64,000 bases of DNA from Candidatus Eiseniibacteriota bacterium. Its GTDB lineage: Bacteria > Orphanbacterota > Orphanbacteria > Orphanbacterales > Orphanbacteraceae. The position numbers and the translations under genes are program-made. Position 1 is the stretch's first letter, and every line of letters starts with the position of its first letter. The notes beneath the pieces were generated by a model. That model was not told the origin of the DNA. It worked only from the letters and a program-made list of their open reading frames with translations, and searched no databases. Shown here piece after piece: positions 7,206 to 48,373 of this stretch. The DNA is taken from positions 186,001 to 250,000 of the forward strand of contig JAJCZU010000003.1 in NCBI GenBank assembly GCA_029262235.1. The letters are read 5' to 3'.

Positions 7206-10200
7206 ATGCTCACGCGTCTCATCATTCTATCGCTTCATCATCGCCTGATCGTTCTCGCGGCGGCCGCAATTCTGCTCGTCATTGGCGCGCTTACGATCAT
7301 GCGTACCCCGGTCGACGTATTTCCCGACCTCTCCGCGCCCACGGTCACCATCATTGTAGAGGGCGTCGGGATGGCGCCCGAAGAGATGGAACTTCTGGTT
7401 TCGTTCCCGATCGAGTCGGCGCTGAACGGGGCTCCCGGTATTCGCCGCGTCCGCTCCGTTTCGGCATCGGGAATTTCCGTGATCTGGGCGGAGTTTGCGT
7501 GGGGCGAAGACATCTACAGAGCGCGCCAGATCGTGGCGGAGCGTATTCAGAAGGTCACGCTTCCCGATCATGTGCCTGCGCCCGAACTCGGTCCGATCAG
7601 TTCGGTCATGGGCGAGATTACGTTCCTGGCGCTCACGTCCGAGGGGTCCGCGACTTCGCTGATGGACCTCCGGCGCCTCGCCGAAACAGTCGTGCGCCGG
7701 AATCTGCTGTCGCTGCCCGGTGTATCGCAGGTCGTTCCGATCGGGGGAGACGTGCGCGAGTATCAGGTGGAAGTGGAAATCCCCGCGCTGCTCCAGCACA
7801 GCGTGGGAGTGGAAGAGATCGCCGAAGCGCTTTCGCGGGCGACGCGGAATCCGGCGGCCGGCTTCTATGTCGACCGCGGCCAGGAGTATCTCGTGCGCGG
7901 GCAGGCCCGGGCGCGCACTGTGGACGATCTCGCCGACGCGCTCATTCATGTCGATGACGGAGTGCCGCTCGTGGTGCGCGACGTCGCCAGCGTAGGCATC
8001 GGGGCGGCGCCGAAGCGCGGGATTGCGGCGTTCAATGCGAAGCCGGCCGTGATCTTGAGCGTTACCAAGCAGCCTGGGGCGAACACGCTGTCGATGATGA
8101 AGGACATCAACGCCATGCTCGACGAACTGGCTCATTCGCTGCCGGACGATGTCGTGATCGAACGCGAAAGTTTTCGTCAGTCGGACTTCATTCAAACGGC
8201 AATCGACAATGTTTCGCACGCGCTTCGCGACGGCGCCATTCTCGTTATTCTCGTACTGTTTCTGTTCCTCGGGAACTGGCGAACCACGCTCCTTTCGGCG
8301 ATCGCGATTCCGCTCTCGCTGCTCGCGGGCGTTCTCGTTCTCTCGGCGTTCGGTGGCACGATGAACACGATGACGATCGGCGGCTTTACGATCGCGATCG
8401 GGGCCCTCGTGGACGACGCAATCGTGGTGGTCGAAAGCGTGTACCGCCGCCTGAGGGAAACACCGAAGGGGAGCGACGTTCAGCGTCTGGCCGTGATTCA
8501 GGAAGCGGCCTCGAGCGTGGTCGGCGCCGTCTTCTTCGCAACGCTGATCATCGTTCTCGTGTTCATACCGCTCTTCTTCCTGCCGGGTATGGAAGGGCGC
8601 CTTCTGCAGCCGCTCGGTTTCTCGTATCTCGTGGCGCTCATCTCTTCGCTGATCGTGTCGGTGACCGTAACGCCGGCGATGGCGTATCTGCTGCTCGGGA
8701 ATACGTCGAGCGAGACCGCGCGCGAACCGTGGCTCATGCGCAAACTCGTTGCGCGCTACGAGCGCGATCTCGCCACTGCGCTCCGCTCCCCGCGCCGCGT
8801 CATTCTGTCGAGCATCGCACTGCTCCTGATCGCGCTCGCCATGCTTCCGTTCGTCGGCCGCAGTTTCCTGCCTCCCTTCAATGAAGGCTCGCTCACGATC
8901 TCGGTCGTATCGCCCCCCGGTATCACGCTGGAAGAAAGCGATGTGGTCGGACGCCAGGTGGAAGAGGCACTTCTCACGTTTCCCGAAGTCGTGTCGACCA
9001 CGCGCCGCACCGGCCGCGCGGAAAAGGACGAGCACGTGCAGGGCGTGAACGCGTCCGAACTCGAAGTGGTCCTTCGCAAGGACATCGACAAGGACCGTCT
9101 TGTTTCGGACATGCGGGCCGCCGTAGCCATGATCCCGGGCGCCAACATCAGCTTCGGGCAGCCCATCAGCCACCGGATCGATCACATGATCTCGGGGAGT
9201 AAATCGAATCTCGCCGTGAAAGTGTTCGGCCCCGACCTCGCGGTGCTCAGGAACCTTACGCGGCAGGTCGAAGAAGCCATCACGCCCGTTCCCGGAATCG
9301 TGGACGTCAGCAACCAGGAGCAGGCGAGTGTGCCGCAGCTGCTGATCGAGTTCGACCGGCCCGCGCTGGCACGCCTCGAGATGGACGCTGCCGAACTGTC
9401 GCGCGTCGTGGAAGCGGCGTTCCAGGGGACCGAGGTCGGTGAGATCATCGAAGACGGCATCGTTTCGCGCGTTGTTCTTCGCTTTCCCGAACGACTGCGC
9501 GCGCACCGCGACCAGCTCGAAGAGCTGCCCGTTATCACGAAGAGCGGCCGCCTGCTTCGCCTCGGCGATGTGGCCCGCGTGCGTTTCGATCTCGGCCCGA
9601 GCATGATTCGAAGGGAGAACGTGCAGCGCGTCGGTATGGTGACGGCGAACATAGAAGGTGTCGATCTGAACGGTACGGTGGAAGCCGCGCGCGCCGCTGT
9701 GGCTGCAGCCCTCAGCCTGCCTCAGGGATATCGCGTTACGTTCGGCGGGCAGTTCGAAGAAGGGGCGCGCAGCACACGGAACATTGCCGTGCTGGCCACG
9801 CTCTCGCTGATCGCGATGTACGGCGTGCTCTTCATCGCGTTCAAGAGCCATCGCCAGACCATGATCGTTCTCGTTAATCTTCCGCTGGCGCTCATCGGCG
9901 GCGTGTTCGCGATCATGCTCGGCGACCGCGTGCTCAGCATCGCGTCGTTCGTCGGTCTCATCACGCTGTTCGGCATCGCCACGCGTAACGGCGTGCTGCT
10001 CGTCACGCGCTACCAGGACCTCATGCGCGAAGGGATGTCCGTATTCGAAGCCGTGCGAAAAGGTTCGCTCGAACGCCTCGCGCCCGTCGTCATGACGGCG
10101 CTCACCGCCGGGCTTGCGCTCGTGCCGCTCGTGCTGGCAGGCGGGGAGCCCGGGAACGAGATTCAAAGTCCCATGGGACGCGTCATTCTGGGCGGGCTCA

Positions 10201-10346
10201 TCACGTCGACGCTGCTGAACCTGATTCTCGTACCCGTGCTGTTCATCAAGTGGGGCGGGGGAGTGACGGCGCGTGGTACTGCGAAGAGCAATGACGTGGC
10301 TAAACCGAAGCGTGAGTCAGCACCAGAGCAGAACGACAGATCGTGA
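7206..10346 (+). CDS. czcA: RND heavy-metal efflux pump, CzcA/CusA-like
   Basis: 1046 residues, full length for an RND pump. N-terminal TM1 ('LIILSLHHRLIVLAAAAILLVIGAL') leads into a periplasmic porter domain; the second TM bundle and second loop follow. The TM4 proton-relay region reads 'GGFTIAIGALVDDAIVVVES', keeping the essential Asp of HME-type pumps (CusA has GAMVDAAIV). The early 'MRTPVDVFPDLSAPTVTI' is characteristic of CzcA/CusA relatives. It should pump divalent or monovalent metal ions from periplasm or cytoplasm through the channel encoded by this operon, driven by protons. The RcnR-like regulator suggests Ni/Co, but the pump sequence itself does not settle the metal. Confidence 0.92.
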   Translation: MLTRLIILSLHHRLIVLAAAAILLVIGALTIMRTPVDVFPDLSAPTVTIIVEGVGMAPEEMELLVSFPIESALNGAPGIRRVRSVSASGISVIWAEFAWGEDIYRARQIVAERIQKVTLPDHVPAPELGPISSVMGEITFLALTSEGSATSLMDLRRLAETVVRRNLLSLPGVSQVVPIGGDVREYQVEVEIPALLQHSVGVEEIAEALSRATRNPAAGFYVDRGQEYLVRGQARARTVDDLADALIHVDDGVPLVVRDVASVGIGAAPKRGIAAFNAKPAVILSVTKQPGANTLSMMKDINAMLDELAHSLPDDVVIERESFRQSDFIQTAIDNVSHALRDGAILVILVLFLFLGNWRTTLLSAIAIPLSLLAGVLVLSAFGGTMNTMTIGGFTIAIGALVDDAIVVVESVYRRLRETPKGSDVQRLAVIQEAASSVVGAVFFATLIIVLVFIPLFFLPGMEGRLLQPLGFSYLVALISSLIVSVTVTPAMAYLLLGNTSSETAREPWLMRKLVARYERDLATALRSPRRVILSSIALLLIALAMLPFVGRSFLPPFNEGSLTISVVSPPGITLEESDVVGRQVEEALLTFPEVVSTTRRTGRAEKDEHVQGVNASELEVVLRKDIDKDRLVSDMRAAVAMIPGANISFGQPISHRIDHMISGSKSNLAVKVFGPDLAVLRNLTRQVEEAITPVPGIVDVSNQEQASVPQLLIEFDRPALARLEMDAAELSRVVEAAFQGTEVGEIIEDGIVSRVVLRFPERLRAHRDQLEELPVITKSGRLLRLGDVARVRFDLGPSMIRRENVQRVGMVTANIEGVDLNGTVEAARAAVAAALSLPQGYRVTFGGQFEEGARSTRNIAVLATLSLIAMYGVLFIAFKSHRQTMIVLVNLPLALIGGVFAIMLGDRVLSIASFVGLITLFGIATRNGVLLVTRYQDLMREGMSVFEAVRKGSLERLAPVVMTALTAGLALVPLVLAGGEPGNEIQSPMGRVILGGLITSTLLNLILVPVLFIKWGGGVTARGTAKSNDVAKPKRESAPEQNDRS

Positions 10347-22970: not shown

Positions 22971-25900
22971 GAGTTGGCGACCGCCGCTTCGCGTTCGCGG
23001 GACCTGCTCCGGGTCGCGGTGATGGCATCCTCCACGATCAGGTACAGCGTCGGTACGAGAACCAGTGAAATGGCTGTCGCGAACAGAATGCCGTAGCCGA
23101 GAGAAAGCGCCATCGGAATCATGAAGCGCGCCTGGCGCGAGGTTTCGAAGATCATGGGGGCGAGCCCGCCGAACGTCGTCAGCGTCGTCAGCAGAATGGG
23201 ACGGAAACGCCGTACGCCGGCGGCCATGATCGCGTCATGACGAGAGAGGCCCATCGCGAACTGCTTGTTCGCGTACTCCACGAGAACGAGCGAATCGTTT
23301 ACCACGACTCCGGCAAGCGCGATCATTCCCATGATGCTGATGATGCTCAGGTTGTACCCCATGATGAGATGACCGAGGACCGCGCCGACCACTCCGAACG
23401 GAATACTGATCATGACGATGAACGGCTGCGTGTAGCTGCGGAACGGGATCGCAAGCAGAAAGTACATCGCGAAGAACGCAAGTAGCAGCCCGCTGACGAG
23501 CGCGGATACACTCTCCGCCATATCGGCCTGACGCCCTTCGTACTGCAGAGAGAGGCCGGGATAATCACGCACCAGCTGAGGCAGCACGGAGTCGTTCAAC
23601 GTGGCCTTCACCTGATTCGTTTCACCGATCGGTTCGACGTTGGCCGTTACGGTAACGGTTCGTCTTCCGCCGCGCCGCACGATACTCGTATAGGAACGTC
23701 CGCGCGTCACTTCCGCCACCTGCATCAGAGGAACCTGACTTCCGGCGGGCGTTTGAATCAGAAGCTGTTCGATGTTGTACTCGCTGACACGCTCACTCTG
23801 CGGTCGACGAACCAGGACTTTCACCTCGTTACGCCCCCGCTGCTGCCGGAGCGCTTCGGATCCGTAGAAGGCGGAACGTACCTGGCGTGCGACGTCCATT
23901 GACGAGAGGCCGAGCGATCGCCCGGCGGACGTCATCTGAAAGTCGAGTTGCTGCTTTCCCGGAGTGTAGCCGTCGTCGATGTCCTTGGTGTTCGAGAACT
24001 CTTCGAGCTGAGCTGCCAGGGCCGTGCTGGCACGATCCAGCACATCGATGTCGCGATGGCTGAGTTCGATCGTGAGCGCGGCGCCGGAACCGGGCCCCCC
24101 GCGATCCGAGGCAAAGCGAAGTGACTGCAGCCCGGCGATCGCGCCGACCTGCTCGCGCCACAGTTCCGTGAGCTGGGTCGTGGTCAGGGGGCGTACGTCT
24201 GCATCCGTCAGGTAGATGCTGACTTCGACCTCGTTCTCTTCGATCGTCGAAAATATCCCCTCGGACAGAGTCTCGCCCCCGTTTTCCCGCGTAACGAGAT
24301 CGGCCGCCTCGACGAGTCGTTCCTGCACGCTGCGCGCCGCGGCGACGGGGCTGCCGAACGGAAGTACCGCCGTGACGACGGAGCGGTCGGATTCGACGCG
24401 CGGCATCAGAATGACTCCGATATGCCCCGAAGAGACGTAGGTAAACGTCACGATCAGGATCGAGAGCGCGATGGAGATCACGAGCACACGGTGATGCAGG
24501 CATCGATCGAGAAACGGGCGGTACTTCTCTTCGATGATGCGGGCGACAAATCGTGCAAAAGCCTCCTGCCGGGCACGGAGCGATTTCGCGATCGCGGAGC
24601 CGGGGCGACTCTTCGTGTGCGCGAGATGCGAAGGCAGGATCAGAAGGCTCTCGAGCCACGAGATCAGGAAGACCGTGATTACGACAACCGGAATCACTTT
24701 CCAGATCTTGCCGACGAAACCCGGCACGAAATAGAGGGGCAGAAACGCGACGATGTTCGTCAGGATACTGAAGGCGATCGGCGTCGAAACGTCGCGCGCG
24801 CCGAGAATGGCCGCGTCCCGAAAGTTCATGCCGCGCTGACGATACTCGTAAATGTTCTCGCCCGCGATGATCGCGTCGTCCACGACGATTCCGAGCGCGA
24901 TGATGAACGCGAACATCGAAATCATGTTGATGCTGACGCCCATCAGAGGGAGAAACAGCAACCCACCGAGAAACGAGATCGGGATCCCCATCGTGACCCA
25001 GAACGCAAGCTTGAATTCGAGAAACGCACCGAGCACGAGAAGTACGAGCAGGAGGCCGATCGACGCGTTCTTCATCAGCAGGCCGAGCCGCTGTCGATAG
25101 ATTTCCGAACGATCGTTGTTGATGGCGTAGTTCACGCCGGGAGGGAGGTCCGCCTCGATGTCGTGGAGCGCCGCACGCACCGCGTCGGAGACTCCGATGG
25201 GTGTTTCCGCCCCGATGCGGAACACGCCGAGGCTGACCGCCCGCTTTCCATTGAAGTAGGCTTCGTTGTCGGTGTCCTGGAAGCCTTCGGTCACGCTGCC
25301 CAGATCGCCGAGCCTCAGCACCGTGCCTCCGGCCGTGGTTACGATCGGCAGTTCGTCGAATTCACGTGCCCAGTCGCGACGATCTTTGAAGCGCACGAGG
25401 ATCTCACCGGCGTCGGTCTCGACGCTGCCGCCCGGAAACTCGATCGCCGCCGCACGGATTCGCTGTGCGATCTGCTCGAGAGTGAGGCTGTGGGCGCGCA
25501 GTTTCTGTTCGGGGATTTCGACGTGGATTTCGTAGGAGCGCGCCCCGATCAAGTCGACCTGCGTAATGCCGGAACTCTGAAGCAGGCGATCGCGCATTTC
25601 TTCCGCGAGATTGCGGAGGCCCCACTCGCTCACATCGCCATAGAGCTGCAGGCTCAGTACTTCACGCCGCCGCGCGTCGAGTGCAATCCGTGGTTCCTCG
25701 GCCTCTTCGGGGAACGTCGTAATGCGCGCTACTTCCTGCTGAATGTTCTGATAAACGGTCTGGCCGTCCACGTTCTCGAAAAGCTCGATCCTGATGGAGG
25801 CGCGGCCTTCCGACGCAGTCGCCGTGACTTCCTTGATCCCGTCGAGGGCGCGCACCACTTCTTCTACTGCGAGAATGATTCCCTGTTCGACTTCTTCCGG

Positions 25901-26104
25901 GCTCGCTCCCGGGTACGAGACGCTGACGCTCACGCTGTCGAGCTCGAACTCGGGGAACACTTCCTTCTTGATGCGGCTGGACATGAAAATGCCGCCGACG
26001 ATCAGGATGATCATCAGCAGGTTGGCGGTAATGCGGTTGTCGACCATCCACGCGATCGGGCCGCGCGCGGCTGCTTCACTCGACTCCGTGCGATGCTGAA
26101 TCAA
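22967..26104 (-). CDS. RND efflux pump, HAE-like permease
   Basis: 1045 residues. It has the RND layout with TM1 'ANLLMIILIVGGIFMSSRIKKEVFPEFELDSVSVSVSYPG' and two large periplasmic loops. The TM4 relay motif 'AFIIALGIVVDDAIIAGENIYEYRQRG' has the paired Asp of drug/hydrophobe exporters rather than the VDG/VDA of metal pumps. Phe- and Leu-rich second-half helices contain 'GMIALAGVVVNDSLVLVEYANK'. It belongs to the broad AcrB/MexF-like family whose pumps often carry lipids, dyes or organic stressors. Last gene of an OMF-adaptor-pump operon: its start overlaps the adaptor stop by 4 bases. Confidence 0.9.
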   Translation of the reverse strand: MIQHRTESSEAAARGPIAWMVDNRITANLLMIILIVGGIFMSSRIKKEVFPEFELDSVSVSVSYPGASPEEVEQGIILAVEEVVRALDGIKEVTATASEGRASIRIELFENVDGQTVYQNIQQEVARITTFPEEAEEPRIALDARRREVLSLQLYGDVSEWGLRNLAEEMRDRLLQSSGITQVDLIGARSYEIHVEIPEQKLRAHSLTLEQIAQRIRAAAIEFPGGSVETDAGEILVRFKDRRDWAREFDELPIVTTAGGTVLRLGDLGSVTEGFQDTDNEAYFNGKRAVSLGVFRIGAETPIGVSDAVRAALHDIEADLPPGVNYAINNDRSEIYRQRLGLLMKNASIGLLLVLLVLGAFLEFKLAFWVTMGIPISFLGGLLFLPLMGVSINMISMFAFIIALGIVVDDAIIAGENIYEYRQRGMNFRDAAILGARDVSTPIAFSILTNIVAFLPLYFVPGFVGKIWKVIPVVVITVFLISWLESLLILPSHLAHTKSRPGSAIAKSLRARQEAFARFVARIIEEKYRPFLDRCLHHRVLVISIALSILIVTFTYVSSGHIGVILMPRVESDRSVVTAVLPFGSPVAAARSVQERLVEAADLVTRENGGETLSEGIFSTIEENEVEVSIYLTDADVRPLTTTQLTELWREQVGAIAGLQSLRFASDRGGPGSGAALTIELSHRDIDVLDRASTALAAQLEEFSNTKDIDDGYTPGKQQLDFQMTSAGRSLGLSSMDVARQVRSAFYGSEALRQQRGRNEVKVLVRRPQSERVSEYNIEQLLIQTPAGSQVPLMQVAEVTRGRSYTSIVRRGGRRTVTVTANVEPIGETNQVKATLNDSVLPQLVRDYPGLSLQYEGRQADMAESVSALVSGLLLAFFAMYFLLAIPFRSYTQPFIVMISIPFGVVGAVLGHLIMGYNLSIISIMGMIALAGVVVNDSLVLVEYANKQFAMGLSRHDAIMAAGVRRFRPILLTTLTTFGGLAPMIFETSRQARFMIPMALSLGYGILFATAISLVLVPTLYLIVEDAITATRSRSREREAAVANS

Positions 26105-32607: not shown

Positions 32608-35600
32608 TCAGTCGAGCGCCACTGGTTTTCTTGGTGCAAACCACGCGTAGATGGCCGGAATGACGAGCAGCGTCAGCACGGTGGAAGTCACGAGCCCGCC
32701 GACAACGACCGTAGCCAGCGGTTTCTGGACCTCGCTTCCCATTCCCGTCGCGAGCAGCAGCGGGATGAGCCCGAGCGCGGTTGTAAGCGCGGTCATCAGT
32801 ACGGGGCGGAGGCGCAGGCACGCGCCGCGAACGGACGCCTGGTCGATCGGAACCCCCTCTTTCACCAGCTGGTTCAAGTACGTCACGAGCACCATCCCGT
32901 TCTCGAGCGCGATCCCGAAGAGTGCGATGAAACCGACGGACGCGGGCACAGACAGGTTCTGGCCCGAGAGCCAGAGCGCGGCGACGCCGCCTACGAGAGC
33001 GAGCGGAATGTTCAGCAGGATCAGCACGGCGTTCTTGAGCGATTGAAAACTGCTGAAGAGCAGCAGAAACACGGCAAGCAGCGTGAAGGGCACGACAACG
33101 CGCAGCCGCTTGTTCGCCTCCTGCTGCAGACGAAACTGCCCGCCCCAGGTCACGAGATAGCCCGGTGGCAGATCGACCTGCTCGTCGATCACTCTCTGCG
33201 CCTCTTCGACGAACGTTCCGATATCGCGCCCGATCACATTGCACTGCACGGTAATGAAGCGCTGATTGTCTTCGCGCTTGATCTGGCGCGGGCCGATGAT
33301 CTCCTCGATCTCGGCGAGTTCGTCGAGCGGGACCTTGAGGCCATCGGGCCCGTTGATCAGGATGTGACCGATTGCTTCGGCCGTTTCACGCGCTCTCGGT
33401 TCGTAACGCACGAGAATGTCGAAACGGCGCACGCCTTCGAAGATCTGGCCCGCTACTTCGCCCCCGATTGCCGCGTGTACGACTGCCTGCACGTCGGCCA
33501 CGTTAATCCCGTATCGGGCGATGGCTTTGCGGTCGATTTTGACGAGAAGCTGCGGAGCGCCGCCGACCTGGTCGACCTGAATGTCGGCCGCGCCGCGGAC
33601 GTCGCGTACTGCCGCCGCAATTCGTTCCGCCTGCGTCCGCAGAATGTCCAGGTCTTCGCCGAACAGCTTGATCGCGAGTTCGGCGCGAATTCCTTCGAGC
33701 AGTTCGTCGACAGTCATCTCGATCGGCTGCGTCAGATTCGCGAGCACGCCGGGGATGTTCCCGAGTTCTTCGCGAATGATGTTCTCGATGTCTTCCTGCG
33801 ATTCCGCAGTCCTCCATTCAGCCGGAGGGTGGAGCAGCACGTAGATCTCGGCGCTGTTGATCGGGTCCGCATGCGCGCCCACCTCACCGCGACCGATTCG
33901 TGTCACGACCTCACGCACTTCCGGAATCGCAAGGAGCCTGCGCTCGACGATCAGCGTGCTGCGTGTGCTCTCCGTCAGCGAGATGGAAGGGGCCATCGTG
34001 AGGCGCACGACAATCGTCCCTTCTTTCAGCTTCGGAGTGAACTCGGATCCCAGTCGTGGAAAGAGCACGGCGCCCACTGCGAGCAGGCCGAGCGAAACCG
34101 CGACGGCGATCCAGCGATGCGCGATAAAGAATCGAAGTAAGGGGCGGTAGGGCCGAAGAAGCATGCGCACGATGGCAGACTCGCCCGCGTCGGCACGCGA
34201 TTTGATGCCGGGAACGGACTTTCGCTTCGGTGCGCGCATGAAGACGCTTCCGAGCATCGGCGCGAGCGCCAGCGCAAAGATAAGCGAACCGAGCATCGCA
34301 AACGAAACGGTGTAAGCGAGTGGACGAAACGTTTTTCCTTCCACGCCCTGCAGCGTGAACAACGGCAGGAACACGATGATGATGATCGAGATGGCGAACA
34401 GGATCGGGCGGCCGACTTCCCGGCACGCCCGCGCGATGACCTGCATGCGCGGTTCGTCCGGCTTCGCCGTACGCAGCATGCGGTCGATGTTCTCGACCAT
34501 GACGATCGTGCCGTCTACCATCATGCCGATCGCGATCGCGAGACCTCCGAATGACATGAGGTTCGCCGAGATCCCCGCGCGCCCCATCAGTAGAAACGCG
34601 AACAGGACCGAGAAGGGAATCGAGATCGCGACGACGAAGCTTGGCCGGAGGCCCCCCATGAATACGAGCAGCACGAGTGAAACGAGCACGATCCCCTGCA
34701 CAAGCGCACTCGTAACCGTTCTGACAGCGCCCTGCACAAGGCTTTTCTGTTCGTAGTAGGGAACGATCTCGACACCGTCCGGCAGGATGTCGTTGATCTT
34801 CCGCAGGCGCTCTTCGACGCTGGCGATGACCGTGGACGAGTTGGTGCCGAACAGTTTGATTACCATGCCGGACACGACTTCGCCCGCGCCGTTTCGCGTC
34901 TGCACGCCGCGTCGAATCGCCCCGCCGATCTCGACATCCGCGAGGTCGCTCAGGAACACCGAGCGGCCGTCCTCCGTCTTGACGACGACCGAGCGCAGGT
35001 CGTCCCGGTTCGTCGCGAGTCCGACGGAACGAACGACGAATTCTTCTGCGTTCTTCTCGATGAACTGCGCGCCCACGTTCAGGTTGTTCGCACGGATGCG
35101 CTCGATGACTTCGCCGAGCGTCACGTCGAACCGCAGGAGCTCTTCCGGGTGGACCACTACGTGAAACTGCTTTTCGTAGCCGCCGATGCCGAGTACTTCC
35201 GTCACGCCGGGCACGGTTTGCAGGTGAAATTTGACGAGCCAGTCTTGAATCGTGCGCAGCTCTTCGAGCGAATGTTCGCCCTTCGTGTCGTTCAAATAGT
35301 AGAAGAGAACGAGACCCATCCCGGTCGAGATCGGCCCGAGTTCCGGCTCCCCGAAGCCCTCGGGAATCTGTTCGCGCGCTTCCTGCAGTCGCTCGCCGAC
35401 CAGTTGACGTGCGAAGTACACGTCCATGTTGTCCTCGAAGTACACGTTCACTACCGAGAGGCCGAAGTTCGAAACACTGCGCACTTTTTCGACGCCGGGA
35501 AGTCCCGTCATGGCGACTTCGACCGGATACGTGACGAACTTTTCGATTTCCTCGGGCGCGAGCCCTTCGGTGACCGTGAAAACCTGCACGAGGTTCGGGG

Positions 35601-35727
35601 AAACGTCCGGGAATGCGTCGACCGGTAGCTTTGTGTAGGTGTAGTACCCTGCGGCCATGACGAGCAGAGCAAACACCGTTACAAGGAGGCGATTGCGCAA
35701 GCTGAACTGAATGATACGTTCAATCAT
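32608..35727 (-). CDS. RND heavy-metal efflux pump, CzcA/CusA family (second operon)
   Basis: 1039 residues. N-terminal TM1 and 'YYTYTKLPVDAFPDVSPNLVQVFTVTEGLAPEEIEKFVTYPVE' are diagnostic of heavy-metal pumps. TM4 reads 'GGLAIAIGMMVDGTIVMVENIDR', the HME relay motif with VDG. It is the last gene of an operon with an outer-membrane factor, a His-rich adaptor and a Cys-rich small secreted protein. It exports metal from the periplasm or cytosol; candidate ions are Cu(I)/Ag(I) or Zn/Co/Cd, and the sequence alone does not decide. Confidence 0.92.
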   Translation of the reverse strand: MIERIIQFSLRNRLLVTVFALLVMAAGYYTYTKLPVDAFPDVSPNLVQVFTVTEGLAPEEIEKFVTYPVEVAMTGLPGVEKVRSVSNFGLSVVNVYFEDNMDVYFARQLVGERLQEAREQIPEGFGEPELGPISTGMGLVLFYYLNDTKGEHSLEELRTIQDWLVKFHLQTVPGVTEVLGIGGYEKQFHVVVHPEELLRFDVTLGEVIERIRANNLNVGAQFIEKNAEEFVVRSVGLATNRDDLRSVVVKTEDGRSVFLSDLADVEIGGAIRRGVQTRNGAGEVVSGMVIKLFGTNSSTVIASVEERLRKINDILPDGVEIVPYYEQKSLVQGAVRTVTSALVQGIVLVSLVLLVFMGGLRPSFVVAISIPFSVLFAFLLMGRAGISANLMSFGGLAIAIGMMVDGTIVMVENIDRMLRTAKPDEPRMQVIARACREVGRPILFAISIIIIVFLPLFTLQGVEGKTFRPLAYTVSFAMLGSLIFALALAPMLGSVFMRAPKRKSVPGIKSRADAGESAIVRMLLRPYRPLLRFFIAHRWIAVAVSLGLLAVGAVLFPRLGSEFTPKLKEGTIVVRLTMAPSISLTESTRSTLIVERRLLAIPEVREVVTRIGRGEVGAHADPINSAEIYVLLHPPAEWRTAESQEDIENIIREELGNIPGVLANLTQPIEMTVDELLEGIRAELAIKLFGEDLDILRTQAERIAAAVRDVRGAADIQVDQVGGAPQLLVKIDRKAIARYGINVADVQAVVHAAIGGEVAGQIFEGVRRFDILVRYEPRARETAEAIGHILINGPDGLKVPLDELAEIEEIIGPRQIKREDNQRFITVQCNVIGRDIGTFVEEAQRVIDEQVDLPPGYLVTWGGQFRLQQEANKRLRVVVPFTLLAVFLLLFSSFQSLKNAVLILLNIPLALVGGVAALWLSGQNLSVPASVGFIALFGIALENGMVLVTYLNQLVKEGVPIDQASVRGACLRLRPVLMTALTTALGLIPLLLATGMGSEVQKPLATVVVGGLVTSTVLTLLVIPAIYAWFAPRKPVALD

Positions 35728-35735
35728 GATGCCTC

Positions 35736-36800
35736 CTAGTGCGCGTGGCCGTCGCCGAACGCTTCTTTTTCGAGTTCGGCCTTGAGCGTGAAGCCGCCCT
35801 TGCTCACATAGCGAATGCCCGGCGGGAGGCCGCTCAGCACTTCGTACGTCGTTTCATTGTGACGACCCAGCGTGACTGGCTGCGGAATGAGCCCTTCGTC
35901 CGTTTCGACAAAGACGACCGTCCTGCCTTCGAACATCTGCAGCGCCGTACCCGGAACGGCGACCGGAACTTCCGCTTCCCCTACCGTCACGCGGGCGGTG
36001 ACGAACATGCCGGGCCGCCAGAGACTCTCCTTGTTCGTGAGGACGAGGCGCGCCGTTGCCGTGCGCGTGTGTTCGTCGACGATCGGCGTGATGTACGAGA
36101 TCCTGCTCGTGCCATGCGCGACATCGTGGCCGATCAGGACCTGCGCGGACTGCCCGACTTTCACGATATTCAGGTCGCGCTGGTACACAGTGACGTCGAC
36201 CCAGACCGACGAGAGGTCCGCGATTACGAATGCGTCCCGATCGCGCGATGCCGCTTCGCCCAGCGTGATGTGCTTCGCGATGATCGTTCCCGATATCAGT
36301 GTGCGCACTTCGAACGGCGCGAGGCTTTCGTCACTTTCGATCACCGCCAGTACCTGTCCCTTCTTCACGTAGTCACCGATCCGCGCCCGGACCTCCTTCG
36401 CGATTCCGGGAAAGCGCGGCACGATATGTGCCAGTCGATCCGCATTCGGAACGACCTCGCCGGGGAGTTCGAGCGTGTTTAGAATCACGCCCGGGCCGGC
36501 CGTCGCGATCTTCACGCCGAACTCGTCCATCTCGGCCTGCGTCAGTCGCACGGCGCCATGGTCGTCGGTGGCGCCATGGTCGTCGGGGGCGCCATGGTCG
36601 TCGGGGGCGCTGTGTTCGGCGTGTTCGCCATTGTCGTTTTCGTGTTCATGATCGTCGTGACCCGGCCCGTCTGACTGTGCCTGCTGCGCGGCGGCAATGC
36701 GGGGCGAGCCGAGGACGCAGAGCACTCCGGACGCGCCGAACAGGTTGATGGACGCGGTGAGAATCAGGCTCAACGCGAATTGTTTGTATCGATCAGTCAT
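35736..36800 (-). CDS. His-rich RND adaptor, CzcB/CusB-like (second operon)
   Basis: 354 residues. The start ATG 36800 is preferred (AGGAGA 9 bases upstream). It has an N-terminal hydrophobic segment 'LILTASINLFGASGVLCVLG', then a signal-type cleavage near 'IAAAQQ' and a stretch of His/Asp repeats including DDHGAP-DDHGAT-DDHGAV encoded by an 18-bp tandem DNA repeat. The adaptor core follows: 'NTLELPGEVVPNADRLAHIVPRFPGIAKEVRARIGDYVKKGQVLAVIES', lacking a long helical hairpin, as in CusB-type short adaptors. The C-terminus ends 'FGDGHAH', also His-rich. The metal-binding tail would deliver ions to the pump. It overlaps the outer-membrane factor by 8 bases. Confidence 0.9.
   Translation of the reverse strand: MTDRYKQFALSLILTASINLFGASGVLCVLGSPRIAAAQQAQSDGPGHDDHEHENDNGEHAEHSAPDDHGAPDDHGATDDHGAVRLTQAEMDEFGVKIATAGPGVILNTLELPGEVVPNADRLAHIVPRFPGIAKEVRARIGDYVKKGQVLAVIESDESLAPFEVRTLISGTIIAKHITLGEAASRDRDAFVIADLSSVWVDVTVYQRDLNIVKVGQSAQVLIGHDVAHGTSRISYITPIVDEHTRTATARLVLTNKESLWRPGMFVTARVTVGEAEVPVAVPGTALQMFEGRTVVFVETDEGLIPQPVTLGRHNETTYEVLSGLPPGIRYVSKGGFTLKAELEKEAFGDGHAH
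36552..36605. repeat. 18-bp tandem repeat encoding DDHGAx
   Basis: Three near-identical units beginning GGCGCCATGGTCGTCGG, with a degenerate fourth. On the minus strand they encode the repeated hexapeptide DDHGAP/T/V of the adaptor's His-rich region. Repeat number may vary between strains. Confidence 0.85.
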
Positions 36801-42108: not shown

Positions 42109-42840
42109 TTACTCCGGATGCTCCGTCGACGTTTCTTCGGCGAGCAGTTTCTCCACTTTGCTTATCACGTCTTTGACTTCCACGCGGCCTTTCCACTCGG
42201 CAACGATACGTCCTTCGCGATCGATCAGGTACATCGCCGGAATCGCCGCAACGCCGAACGCCGCCCAGGCGGGTTCTTCTTTCGCGTCGATCGCAACCGG
42301 GTAGGGGAGCGGCTTCTTCTCCAGGAAATCGGCGACCTTTTTCGGATCGTCGTCGATCGAGATGCCGAGGATCGTGAGCCCGTCGTCCGCGTAGTCGCGA
42401 TGAAGCTTCGTGAGTTTCGGCATCGCCTTGATGCACGGCTTGCACCAAGTCGCCCAGAAGTCGACGAGCAGAAGATCGTCGCGCGCTTCGCCCAGCCTGA
42501 TCTCCGTTTCGCCCAGCGTTTGCAGCGCGACCGCGGGAGCGGGTCTGGGAAGCGGGAGTCTCACGTACCCTGCCGGGAACGCGTCGAACGCCTCGGCGCA
42601 CGGCCCGGAGCAGAAATGATACGCCTCTCCTTCGTGCATGCGCGAGGCAACTACATTCTCCTCGCCATGTCCGGAGCCGCGCATCTCGCAGGTTCGACAG
42701 ACGGCCATTTCGGGAGTGCCTGCCTTCTCGTTTTCGGCGAAGGCAATGCCCGGGGCGGCGATGGCCGTGATGCCGGAGAGCGCAGCGAGGCAAACCGTAG
42801 CCCCGAGAACAAGAGTCGCCATTCGTATCGTATTCATCAT
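42109..42840 (-). CDS. YHS-like metal-binding domain fused to TlpA-type thioredoxin
   Basis: About 243 residues from ATG 42840 (or 42837); AGGAGAGG precedes it. Signal peptide ending 'IAFAENE'. A short TRASH/YHS-like domain follows, with Cys48, Cys51 and Cys77, Cys81 ('CRTCEMRG' ... 'YHFCSGPCAEAF'). Next comes a TlpA/ResA thioredoxin domain with WCKPC (Cys133, Cys136) and 'VAAIPAMYLIDREGRIV' cis-Pro loop. It probably reduces or matures a periplasmic metalloprotein (cytochrome, Cu site) and binds the metal itself. It lies next to a broken barrel gene. The pairing of the two domains in one small protein is uncommon. Confidence 0.85.
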   Translation of the reverse strand: MMNTIRMATLVLGATVCLAALSGITAIAAPGIAFAENEKAGTPEMAVCRTCEMRGSGHGEENVVASRMHEGEAYHFCSGPCAEAFDAFPAGYVRLPLPRPAPAVALQTLGETEIRLGEARDDLLLVDFWATWCKPCIKAMPKLTKLHRDYADDGLTILGISIDDDPKKVADFLEKKPLPYPVAIDAKEEPAWAAFGVAAIPAMYLIDREGRIVAEWKGRVEVKDVISKVEKLLAEETSTEHPE

Positions 42841-42870
42841 CAGACCTCTCCTGATTCCTGTAATCAAATT

Positions 42871-43650
42871 CTAGAAACCGAACGAAACCGAGATGCCAGG
42901 CTCTTCGAGCCAGACCCAGAGAAACGAAATCGTCGCTCTCGGCATGTCGTAGTTCAGCAGCATGTGCGTTTCCGCGCCGTCGTACATCGGGCGCACCGAG
43001 AAGCCGCGTCCGAGTGCAAGCGTTGCGCCGAACGGAAAGTTGATCTCGTCGTCCCACTCGGAGTAATTGACCGTCGCGTAGGTCGCAAGCCCGAGTTCCG
43101 GGATGCTCTTCGCCAGCGTCATGTAGTACGACTGCTCGCCCGGGGGCGAACCGATGCGGTCCGAGCTCGTCCCCAGAAACACTCCGGGCACGCGCGGCCC
43201 TTCGGTTGTCAGAAAGAGCGTCACGAGCGGCCCGACCTCTTCCGCCACCGCGTTGAATTCGACGCCGAGCTGGAGCCTGGGATGCACGCGCACATTGGCC
43301 GTGCTTCGCCAGCGTGCGCGCTCGACGCTCGTATCGACGTAGCGCTGCGAAAACGTGTAGCGCGTGCTCAATCCTTCACCCCCCACGGGAGCGCCTTCAC
43401 CGGGTCAGCCGGATCAGGTAGGCGCGTGTGCGAACGGGCGGGGAGAGGGGGGCGCGGGCTTGGCCGACTCCGGCGGTGTCGTTTGCGCAGGCGCCACAGA
43501 TGGCGCGGAAGCCGTCGAGTCCTCGAGATTCTGCATGGAGGCAGTGGCGATAGCCGGCCCCCCCAGCAGGAACACGAGGACCAGCGCCAGGGCCAGGCTC
43601 GGCATGATCCGCCAGGTGGCCGCGCTTGCAGTTGTCCAGAGTGATGTCAT
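42871..43650 (-). pseudogene. Outer-membrane beta-barrel gene split by two in-frame TGA codons
   Basis: From ATG 43650 the frame encodes a signal peptide ('MPSLALALVLVFLLGGPAIATAS') and a Pro/Ala-rich linker ending 'FAHAPT', then hits TGA at 43416-43414 and, two codons on, TGA at 43407-43405. The same frame then continues open to 42871 with a 171-residue protein of alternating amphipathic strands, 'RLQLGVEFNAVAEEVGPLVTLFL' through to 'GISVSFGF'. It ends in Phe like outer-membrane barrels. Each part alone is incomplete: a leader with no body and a barrel with no leader. Other genes here end in TGA, so recoding is unlikely, and nonsense mutation, sequencing error or two separate proteins remain possible. 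It sits behind the YHS-thioredoxin gene. Confidence 0.6.
43391..43435 (-). other. Stem-loop containing both TGA codons
   Basis: Outer arms GCGCCT / AGGCGC and inner arms CCGG / CCGG with a GTCAG loop enclose both in-frame TGA codons of the broken barrel gene. It may be accidental structure in GC-rich DNA or part of a regulated junction. Confidence 0.35.
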
Positions 43651-45643: not shown

Positions 45644-48373
45644 TCACTCGCCCAGTACCAGGTCCCAGTTCGTCACGAGATTCCAGTGCTTGCCGCCGCG
45701 GTCGGCGGCCGCGGGGCGCTCGATGACGACGAAGAGTTCGCCGTCGTCCCGCACGGCGTACTGATGCGTCCGGATCCCCACAGGGTTACCCATGTTCGTA
45801 TCGAACAGCTTGCGGACTTCGCCGATCGCGAGCCCGCCGTCGCTGGCGGGAGTGACGGCGACGGCCATGATCTCGCTGTCGAGACTCATGAAGTAGATCT
45901 CCCGTCCGTCGCCCCGCCATCGCGGCATGCCGCCGCCGTTCGTCGAGATCTGCCATTTCTCCTCGAGATCGGGAAAGCTCTGCACGTAGACCTCGAGCCG
46001 GCCGGACGCGTTCGATGTATAGGCCATCCACTTGACGTCGGGGGAAAGCGCGGCCTGCACTTCCCGATACGGCGTGGCGAGAAGGGTCACGGGCTTTCCG
46101 ATCCAGCGCTCCAGGGAGTCCGGTTCCGGCGCTTCCCCCTCGAGGTCGATCGCCGCGAGATTCTCGTACTCGTCGAGCGTGACGCGGGAATAGACGATCC
46201 AGCGCCCGTCGCGCGACCAGTCGTGCGGAACCTTGTCCAGCGCATTCTTTCCGACGAGTTCCCGTTCGCCCGCACCGCTCGCGAGACGCCGATAGATCTC
46301 GGAACCGTCCGCGTAGACGACACGTCGTCCGTCGGGCGACCAGACCGGATCGTCGGCGGTTCCCGTAAGCGAAAGGCGTGAGTAGGTCTCTCGGCCGAGA
46401 TCGTAAATCCAGACGTCGATGTCCCGACCCTCCGCGTCCGCCCGCATGAACGCGACGCGGTTCCCGTCGGGCGACAGCGCGAGGTCGTCCATGCCGAAGT
46501 CGTTTTCGACCGAAGCGACGGTGCTGCCATCCCGGTCGTAGGAGGTAAGCCGGGACCCCGTCTGGCTGACTTCGCTCGAATATACGAGAATGCCGTTCTG
46601 CGAAACGTCGAAGTCGGCGCGCCCCCAGCCGGTCGATGAGGCCATCGGTTCGAGGATCGTGATCGCGTCTCCCGTGAACTTGCGCGACTTCGGATCGAAC
46701 GGCGCCGCGATCAGCGTGCTCCCGCGCGCGTAGAGGAGATGCCCGTTCGCGTAGCGCGCGCTCGATTCTAGGTCCGCCAGCTTCTCGTTCACCGATCCGT
46801 CGAGCGACGCGACCCGCAGCTCGGCGACGTCATTGTTTGGTGAGCTCAGATAGACGAAGTGCTCGCCGTCCGGGAGGAAGCACGGAAATCGATGAGAATC
46901 GACATCGGCGCCCGTACTCACGTCCGTTACGGGAACGGGATCGCCCCCCGAAGCCGGTAACGTGAAGATGCCGCCGCCCCGTTCGGGCGCGAACACGATA
47001 CGATCCGAAACGCCCCACGCGCCGCCGCGCGCGTTCGGCGCGGGACAGAGCGTGACCGAAGGCCCTCCGCTCGCGGGAATCTTGCGCAGGCTGCCGTTCG
47101 CGAAGTACGCAACGTGGCGGCTGTCGGGCGACCAGAACGGATAGGCCGCGCCTTCGGTGCCTGGCATCGAACGGGGCGCCGGGTTTTCGATCGAACGAAT
47201 CCAGAGGTTGAAACTCCCCTCTTCGGAGACCGCAGCGTACGCGACTTGACGCCCGTCCGGAGAGATCGACAGATGGCCGCCGCCACCCAGAATGGCGGGC
47301 GAGTCGTCCGGAAGCCGGATCGAGGTCGCCATGCGCATGCGCTCGGGGTGATCGCGGGTGAGAAGTACGAACGCGAGCACGGCCGCCAGAACCCCCAACG
47401 CGCCCGCCACGATCCACGGCAGGCGCGCGGCCCGGCGCCGATGCGCCGCCACCGGCGCCGGAATGCCCGCCATCGAGCCACCCTCGATGATCCATCGCAA
47501 TTGTAAGAGCATGTCGTGCGCCGTTTGCACGCGGTCTTCGGGGTCCTTTGCGAGGCACGCTTTCACGAGGTTCTCGAGCGCCGGCGGCGTGAGCGGCGCC
47601 ACCTGCGAAATCGGCGCCGGGTCGCGCTCCAGAATCGCCGCGATCAGCGACGCCTGGCTCTGGCCTTCGAAAGCCTTCTTCCCCGTCGCCATCTCGTAGA
47701 GAATCGCGCCGAACGAAAAGAGGTCGCTCCGCGCGTCCGCCTCGCGCCCCTCGAGCTGCTCCGGCGCCATGTACTGGAACGTCCCGAGAATCGTGCCCGC
47801 CTGCGTGATCGGCTGCGGCGTGCCCGCGTGCGTCGCCATCTGCGTGAGCGTGCTGACGGGATCAGCCGCGCCCGTCTCCATGATCTTCGCCAGGCCGAAG
47901 TCGAGCAGCTTCACGCCCGCGCGCGTCAGCATGATGTTGCCCGGTTTCAGGTCGCGATGCACGATGCCCGCGCGATGCGCCGCGTCCAGCGCCTCGGCGA
48001 TCTCAGCCCCGATGCGCAGCATCTCGTCCGTGCGCAGGCCCCCCGTGTCCGTGCGGTCCCGGCCGTTCGCCAGACGGTCCGCCAGCGTCTCGCCGTCGAT
48101 GAATTCCATCACCAGGAAGTCGACGTCCCCCTCGCGGCCGATGTCGAACAGCGAGCAGACGTGCGGGTGGTTCAAGCTCGAGATCGTGCGCGCCTCCCGC
48201 TCGAAGCGGCCCCGCAGCTCCTCGTTCTCGCTCATGTGCGCGGGAAGCACCTTGATCGCGACCGAACGGTCGAGGCGCGTGTCGTGGGCGCGATACACCT
48301 CGCCCATACCGCCCGCGCCGATCGCTTCGATGATTTCGTAAGGACCTAGATTGCTGCCGGGTTGGAGTGCCAT
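45644..48373 (-). CDS. Ser/Thr protein kinase with C-terminal TolB-like propeller
   Basis: 909 residues. Kinase domain: Gly loop 'GAGGMGEVYRAHD', Lys41, HRD (139-141) 'HRDLKPGNIML', DFG (158-160), 'GTFQYMAPEQLEG'. A single transmembrane helix (about 319-338) leads to a periplasmic WD40/PD40-type repeat region: 'HLSISPDGRQVAYAA', 'YPFWSPDSRHVAYFANG', 'DDLALSPDGNRVAFMR', 'DPVWSPDGRRVVYADG'. This pattern is common in Acidobacteria and related phyla. Signals sensed by the propeller and kinase targets are unknown. A TAAACT box ends 6 bases before ATG, without RBS. A degenerate copy of the first 45 codons is found at 49456-49580. Confidence 0.9.
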   Translation of the reverse strand: MALQPGSNLGPYEIIEAIGAGGMGEVYRAHDTRLDRSVAIKVLPAHMSENEELRGRFEREARTISSLNHPHVCSLFDIGREGDVDFLVMEFIDGETLADRLANGRDRTDTGGLRTDEMLRIGAEIAEALDAAHRAGIVHRDLKPGNIMLTRAGVKLLDFGLAKIMETGAADPVSTLTQMATHAGTPQPITQAGTILGTFQYMAPEQLEGREADARSDLFSFGAILYEMATGKKAFEGQSQASLIAAILERDPAPISQVAPLTPPALENLVKACLAKDPEDRVQTAHDMLLQLRWIIEGGSMAGIPAPVAAHRRRAARLPWIVAGALGVLAAVLAFVLLTRDHPERMRMATSIRLPDDSPAILGGGGHLSISPDGRQVAYAAVSEEGSFNLWIRSIENPAPRSMPGTEGAAYPFWSPDSRHVAYFANGSLRKIPASGGPSVTLCPAPNARGGAWGVSDRIVFAPERGGGIFTLPASGGDPVPVTDVSTGADVDSHRFPCFLPDGEHFVYLSSPNNDVAELRVASLDGSVNEKLADLESSARYANGHLLYARGSTLIAAPFDPKSRKFTGDAITILEPMASSTGWGRADFDVSQNGILVYSSEVSQTGSRLTSYDRDGSTVASVENDFGMDDLALSPDGNRVAFMRADAEGRDIDVWIYDLGRETYSRLSLTGTADDPVWSPDGRRVVYADGSEIYRRLASGAGERELVGKNALDKVPHDWSRDGRWIVYSRVTLDEYENLAAIDLEGEAPEPDSLERWIGKPVTLLATPYREVQAALSPDVKWMAYTSNASGRLEVYVQSFPDLEEKWQISTNGGGMPRWRGDGREIYFMSLDSEIMAVAVTPASDGGLAIGEVRKLFDTNMGNPVGIRTHQYAVRDDGELFVVIERPAAADRGGKHWNLVTNWDLVLGE

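Follow-up and report, generated by a model that had tools for sequence, protein, structure and literature searches.

A probable double selenoprotein with a UxxU motif before a predicted outer-membrane barrel in a Candidatus Eiseniibacteriota genome

Among the bacterial selenoproteins listed in Table 1 of a 2026 review (PMC13188914), two selenocysteine (Sec, U) residues in a UxxU motif are present in the Prx-like thiol:disulfide oxidoreductase (PF00578) and in the metal-binding family NF041115, formerly annotated as 'putative mercuric reductase'. The same table contains selenoproteins that are outer-membrane barrels, namely the GSU2204/MtrB-PioB-type family NF041027 and the TonB-dependent receptor FCYXU family NF049945. 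Here, we describe a gene in a stretch of 64,000 nucleotides from Candidatus Eiseniibacteriota bacterium (assembly GCA_029262235.1, contig JAJCZU010000003.1, positions 186,001 to 250,000 of the forward strand), which is called the window below. The reading frame of this gene is crossed by two TGA codons. As judged from comparative sequence analysis, the gene very probably encodes a double selenoprotein with the motif U-x-x-U-P-G-E-G before a barrel, and it is not a broken gene.

The predicted window protein is similar to the PF00578 and NF041115 proteins in having two Sec residues in UxxU, and the names given to those proteins in the table suggest thiol or metal chemistry. However, they are described by thioredoxin-fold or metal-binding models, whereas the UxxU of the window protein precedes a predicted outer-membrane barrel. 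With NF041027 and NF049945 it would share a Sec residue in an outer-membrane barrel protein, but in that table these have one Sec each and belong to other families, and neither of them was matched in the NCBIfam search at E up to 1. The 12-stranded barrels FapF, KdgM and NanC (PDB 5o65, 4pr7 and 2wjq, respectively) are among the structures that match the model best, but they are only 8-15% identical in sequence, and this common barrel architecture is uninformative on function. The heavy-metal efflux operons CusCBA/CzcCBA (TIGR00914) are linked to the family by gene order, since homologues with cysteine in place of Sec follow directly after a resistance-nodulation-division (RND) gene in five of the nine genomes that have only this cysteine form. 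In those operons, however, the barrel is an additional gene, and the TolC-like channel is separate (PF02321 in locus L080).

The copper-resistance barrel CopB/PcoB is a functional analogue. Neither its Pfam family nor any other Pfam model matched the window protein or the homologues L004 and L006 at E up to 1. In NCBIfam (release of June 2026), L004 and L006 had no match at E up to 1, and the window protein matched only TIGR03931, with 16.8 bits (cut-off 47.6) and outside the motif. For another homologue, L003, the matches to curated models at E up to 1 were confined to the fused TlpA domain, and three of the cysteine-type barrels had no NCBIfam match at E up to 0.001. No combination of UxxU and an outer-membrane barrel is listed among the 119 families and subfamilies of Table 1 in PMC13188914, and no report of a UxxU barrel selenoprotein family was found in the literature searched, which included few subscription papers and preprints. 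Because the UxxU barrel had no match in Pfam and none above the cut-off in NCBIfam, and because it does not appear in that table, it is most likely a new, previously unlisted bacterial selenoprotein family.

The conserved TGA pair and its cysteine counterparts

The minus-strand translation from 43650 to 42871 runs from MTSLWTTA...FAHAPT through a stop, the residues SG and a second stop into PGEGAPVGGEGLSTRY...SFGF and the terminal TAG. There are exactly two internal stops, both of them TGA (TGA1 at 43416-43414 and TGA2 at 43407-43405). TGA2 is followed by PGEGAPVGGEG and then by a strand-rich C-terminal part. A preliminary description of this DNA had placed a signal peptide and a barrel in one frame, split by TGA-TCC-GGC-TGA; both coordinates and codons were correct, with the gene on the minus strand. 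The gene stretch has a single match site in its own genome (E <= 0.001).

A first protein search of 98 genomes returned only the gene itself and one homologue in genome G015. A scan of genome contigs found four relatives in Candidatus Poribacteria with 53-54% identity, all of them with two TGAs at identical places. Profile searches were carried out on four sets of genomes. The Poribacteria phylum (that of G098; 84 genomes) yielded eight full-length TGA-bearing genes and one fragment. In 132 genomes of the phylum of G015, there were three TGA-bearing genomes, four genomes with stop-free genes bearing the motif, and two genomes with weak matches lacking the motif; G015 itself also had a stop-free paralogue. 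In seven genomes of the window's own phylum, only the window gene was found. In a broad sample of 386 genomes, 15 matched: seven with TGA pairs, five with the cysteine form only and three with weak matches lacking the motif. Repeats were removed (L003 = L033; L024-L027 = L004-L007; L043 and L045 = window; L044 = L030, with identical coordinates; L048 = L033; L059 = L042; L061 = L060), and G535 is apparently the same genome as G115, with identical coordinates. The counts also leave out the weak matches without the motif (L040, L041/L056, L057 and L058, the last of which resembles ribosomal protein S2 by eye) and L032. The latter is a 31-residue barrel remnant, SEWDDGLNFPFGASIDFGKGFSVRGMF, at 1501-1593 on the minus strand in G119 of the Poribacteria phylum, and is apparently a decayed copy.

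The resulting TGA-bearing set contained 16 genes in 16 genomes of Poribacteria and other lineages, the window included. All 16 non-redundant genes had exactly two internal TGAs at the same two positions, and none had TAA or TAG there. Across the first 60 nt from TGA1, aligned in 16 rows, no codon other than the two TGAs was invariant at all three positions. The codons for PGEG after TGA2 were fixed at positions 1 and 2 and varied at position 3, and therefore the protein appears to be read in the TGA frame through both TGAs. The option of a genuine read-through junction, one of three offered in the preliminary description, was thus borne out by the TGA pair kept in 16/16 genes. Compensating frameshifts (two indels, with frame 1 proteinlike across the junction) were also considered and were rejected because the TGA frame itself is constrained in the homologues.

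Comparison of the linker among homologues, as had been proposed in the preliminary description, gave 11 stop-free genes that are uninterrupted and carry CxxC at the site. Ten of them share the motif (E/Q)-C-G-x-x-C-P-x-C-(S/T)-G, and the eleventh, L060 in G373, reads APTCAGCAGEA. In a tree calculated without L049, this G373 cysteine form falls inside the clade of TGA-bearing genes, next to the one from G373 itself, with support 97/91, a placement that joins two long branches, of the kind about which the tree tool warns. When the Sec positions were masked as X in an alignment of 12 Sec and five cysteine proteins, CxxC was placed opposite XxxX in 5/5 cysteine rows in three MAFFT modes and in 4/5 in a fourth mode. 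Genomes G015 and G373 have one Sec form and one cysteine form each, and nine genomes have the cysteine form only. In G015, the Cys-x-x-Cys paralogue lies about 2 kb from a TlpA-UxxU-barrel fusion gene (L072, contig C70, 4167-4898 on the minus strand and about 6.8-8.0 kb on the plus strand, respectively). Selenocysteine is the expected residue, given the cysteine found at both sites in stop-free homologues and the selenocysteine machinery of the genome, which is described below.

SECIS hairpin and selenocysteine machinery

In the bacterial selenocysteine insertion sequence (SECIS) model as given in PMC13188914, the loop has 3-9 nt with a G in the first two positions, the stem has 4-16 bp, and the hairpin is located 16-37 nt from the UGA with an energy of at most -7.5 kcal/mol. 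In all 16 genes, one hairpin agreed with this model for both UGAs, with the energies computed for the hairpin alone. The distance to the loop was 22 nt from TGA2 and 31 nt from TGA1 in 15 genes, and 18 and 27 nt, respectively, in the window. The same model was passed by 1/11 cysteine homologues (from the second Cys) and by 15/790 background codon positions, and it was also passed by the Sec-type SelD of the window genome. With 1000 synonymous recodings per gene, the summed z was -9.5 over related, non-independent sequences, and the effect in single genes was modest, with 0.2-13% of the recodings doing equally well. The helix covaried among the relatives: 91.4% of cells were paired, 7/8 pairs were changed on both sides, and the covariation score was 0.548, compared with 0.216 (standard deviation 0.033) after shuffling and no more than 0.177 when partners were slid. 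The window row, whose hairpin is displaced by 4 nt, was part of this set. One SECIS hairpin would serve both UGAs in these genes. A second hairpin around TGA2 was present in several folds and was not common to all.

The preliminary description had also drawn a stem-loop around the junction. The fold of the junction as a whole gave z = 0.19, that is, nothing beyond composition, and was dropped as a signal; the meaningful hairpin is the shorter one located 3' of TGA2. A known RNA element such as a riboswitch was likewise rejected for the junction, with no Rfam match at the gathering threshold in the window.

The window genome (4.47 Mb, 11 contigs) encodes a tRNA-Sec with anticodon tca (70.7 bits), as well as SelB, SelA and SelD with 370.1, 538.5 and 348.7 bits, respectively. 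Its selD gene has one in-frame TGA, at CGUAAKL. A second SelD-like match, L064 (G000:C3:267519-268475, minus strand), was over the cut-off with 275.6 bits, contained no stop and lies in a 1018-residue open frame, possibly as a fusion. SelB was over the cut-off in 16/16 carrier genomes and in eight of the nine cysteine-only genomes, with G073 as the exception. Sec is almost certainly inserted at the UGAs.

Barrel model, gene neighbourhood and possible function

The features of the locus are given in Table 1.

Table 1. Features at the UxxU barrel locus (positions in the window).
Feature	Position	Strand	Basis
Complete gene for a predicted outer-membrane selenoprotein, 259 residues with two selenocysteines, stop TAG	42871..43650	-	Frame and TGA pair kept in 16/16
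Signal peptide (MTSLWTT...GGPAIATA), boundary by eye	43540..43650	-	Sequence; homologues with hydrophobic N-terminus or extra N-terminal domain
TGA-TCC-GGC-TGA, read as U-S-G-U (UxxU motif)	43405..43416	-	Opposite CxxC of stop-free homologues in alignment
Putative bacterial SECIS hairpin CGCUCCC-GUG-GGGGGUG	43377..43393	-	-8.7 kcal/mol, agrees with published model; helix covaries in relatives
Predicted transmembrane beta-barrel, residues 98-259, about 12 strands	42874..43359	-	AlphaFold2 model and structural neighbours
Downstream TlpA/ResA-like thioredoxin gene with N-terminal YHS-like segment (below Pfam cut-off), probable partner	42109..42867	-	Adjacency; relatives at the corresponding position in G236 and G556; TlpA fusions in G015 and G189

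AlphaFold2, run with the window protein and four relatives, gave a model with 12-13 strands over residues 98-258, in which most barrel blocks had a predicted local distance difference test (pLDDT) score of 67-79, lower at both ends. The predicted template modelling (pTM) score was 0.54. The first long strand was preceded by a stretch of low confidence that contained the UxxU motif. Among the matches listed, the nearest solved structures included the FapF, KdgM and NanC barrels, with Z of about 13-16 over 152-168 residues, and the best Foldseek match was FapF (E 1.9e-4). The C-terminal part is probably a 12-stranded outer-membrane barrel. Barrels with an even strand number have their N-terminal side facing the periplasm. 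With UxxU just before the first strand, the modelled topology would place the motif in the periplasm, provided that the strand number is even. A thioredoxin fold carrying UxxU was not found: the model is a beta-barrel, the window protein has no Pfam thioredoxin match, and the UxxU of L003 is outside its fused thioredoxin domain.

The neighbour search covered 14 of the other 15 Sec carriers, those with long flanks; for G099 (L005), the flank was limited to 2 kb. The YHS-like N-terminus of the thioredoxin gene directly downstream in the window scored 19.6 bits (Pfam cut-off 30.3), and that of its relative in G236 scored 30.0 bits, just under the cut-off. The Sec genes of G015 and G189 carry an upstream TlpA domain as an in-frame fusion. 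TlpA was adjacent or fused in 5/16 Sec carriers. In G376, a redoxin gene lies about 1.1 kb downstream of the Sec gene, a YHS-like segment is fused upstream (23.6 bits, below the cut-off), and the flank also carries Cox11 and cytochrome oxidase genes. The G373 cysteine form has YHS-like segments before it (by eye) and a thioredoxin gene after it. Small Cys-containing, exported-looking proteins are encoded near the YHS-fused barrel genes of G376 (L077, 3951-4379, plus strand) and G373 (L079, 6036-6434, plus strand), and neither had a Pfam or NCBIfam match.

The five cysteine-only genomes with the barrel gene directly after a CusA/CzcA-type RND gene were G251, G192, G064, G073 and G196; in G245, G460, G012 and G513, no gene of this type was directly before it. 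The RND proteins beside the cysteine forms were over the NCBIfam heavy-metal efflux cut-off in 3/3 scanned. Near the cysteine-type barrel of G245, a gene at 8411-9796 on the minus strand (L081) appeared by eye to be cation diffusion facilitator-like, which is another type of metal exporter. The window itself encodes a CusA-type RND pump with an adaptor at 32629-36656 on the minus strand, 49% identical to CusA of G251, and two further RND matches at 7233-10295 (plus strand) and 23042-26047 (minus strand), with 35% and 23%, respectively.

Because homologues are fused to or located beside TlpA or YHS-like segments, and because the cysteine forms follow CusA-type pumps, the protein may provide a periplasmic redox or soft-metal site. 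Belief and doubt are evenly balanced for a metal or thiol role in the periplasm.

Proposed mechanism, alternative readings and meaning

In the proposed mechanism, the gene would give rise to a single protein that is exported. One SECIS located immediately 3' of the second UGA would guide SelB, which would bring Sec-tRNA(Sec) to both UGAs, and two selenocysteines would be inserted three residues apart in T-U-S-G-U-P-G-E-G. After export, the C-terminal part would form the probable 12-stranded outer-membrane barrel, with UxxU on the periplasmic side at the barrel mouth. There, UxxU could act as a diselenol/diselenide redox centre, with the TlpA-like thioredoxin of the adjacent gene serving it. 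Alternatively, it could be a ligand pair for a soft metal, Cu(I), Ag(I), Hg(II) or Zn(II), and handle this metal at the outer membrane jointly with the YHS-like segment. The combined scheme is tentative, and we regard it as somewhat doubtful in its entirety: one SECIS would serve two UGAs 9 nt apart, the periplasmic UxxU would trap or pass soft metal ions or electrons, with TlpA as reductase and the YHS-like segment as metal carrier, and the cysteine version would be an extra component of a CusCBA-type pump.

Several observations weigh against the double selenoprotein or against parts of this mechanism. SelB was over the cut-off also in 17/17 tested genomes of the same phyla without a full-length gene (6/6 of the window's own phylum and 11/11 further genomes of the Poribacteria phylum). 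The co-occurrence of SelB was therefore rejected as strong evidence; its presence discriminates little, indicating competence rather than a specific co-occurrence, because all tested non-carriers have SelB too. The terminal TGAs of L006 and L007 (2/3 tested) also have a hairpin that agrees with the SECIS model. The hairpin of the window is the weakest supported, with a loop 4 nt closer than in the other 15 genes and with 13% of recodings matching it. The barrel model is only moderately confident (mean pLDDT 61), and 3/3 scanned YHS segments were under the Pfam cut-off. By tblastn, no TlpA relative was found in the fetched flanks of the Sec genes of Poribacteria, G546, G376 and G373-C22, and no CusA was found in the fetched flanks of TGA-bearing genes except in the window, where it is about 7 kb away and does not form one operon with the barrel gene.

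The alternative that survives best is that only one UGA, at the optimal SECIS distance, is efficiently decoded as Sec, so that the full-length barrel would be rare or made only at high selenium. The best model-conforming hairpin is identical for both UGAs and stands at two different distances from them, as this alternative would have it. However, both distances are within the 16-37 nt published in PMC13188914, and both TGAs are equally conserved. We consider a single efficient UGA unlikely, though it deserves to be taken seriously.

It is far less probable that two proteins are made by termination at a UGA followed by reinitiation or coupled translation of the barrel frame. A GTG at 43386 starts an open reading frame (ORF) of 171 residues, and the upstream TlpA ORF of G015 alone resembles a complete protein. 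However, the barrel alone would be without a signal peptide, PGEG right after TGA2 is constrained in the same frame, and two proteins would have no need for TGA twice, three codons apart, opposite the Cys-x-x-Cys of one-piece homologues. Homologues in the form of two separate proteins with their own starts, which the preliminary description had named as decisive against a continuous gene, are contradicted by these one-piece cysteine forms, and in G015 and G189 one frame runs from the thioredoxin domain through both TGAs into the barrel.

There is next to no chance that UGA is read as a standard amino acid (Gly or Trp) through a reassigned code or a suppressor. The frame is open through both TGAs, as such a reading requires, but TGA is not simply reassigned, because it ends an ordinary long ORF nearby (45644-48373) and is the terminal stop of three homologues (L006, L007 and L035), in agreement with the earlier remark that TGA is a normal stop elsewhere. 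The glycine suggested earlier for the junction is at odds with the cysteine aligned there in all 11 stop-free motif-bearing homologues and with the Sec machinery and Sec-type SelD of the genome. A double-nonsense pseudogene or a cluster of sequencing errors, both raised earlier, is what two stops within 12 bases of a GC-rich, G-run-rich stretch would look like in a single genome, but both are excluded because the same TGA pair is kept in 15 further non-redundant genes of other assemblies, with flanking codons under protein-level constraint and no TAA or TAG at the site in any of the 16, which leaves them a negligible probability.

The conserved TGA pair, the cysteine counterparts, the SECIS fit with its covariation and the machinery genes were established by computation. 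The double selenoprotein is favoured because it is the sole reading found to explain these four together. The known selenoprotein families are extended by one whose genes are split into two ORFs, or would be taken for pseudogenes, in ordinary gene calling, and two selenocysteines would be placed at the outer membrane in bacteria that are uncultivated. With its two UGAs at a distance of nine nucleotides, the locus would also serve as a compact natural test case for the way in which SelB works with a single SECIS, and the gene context of the cysteine relatives ties this use of selenium to apparent periplasmic metal or thiol handling.
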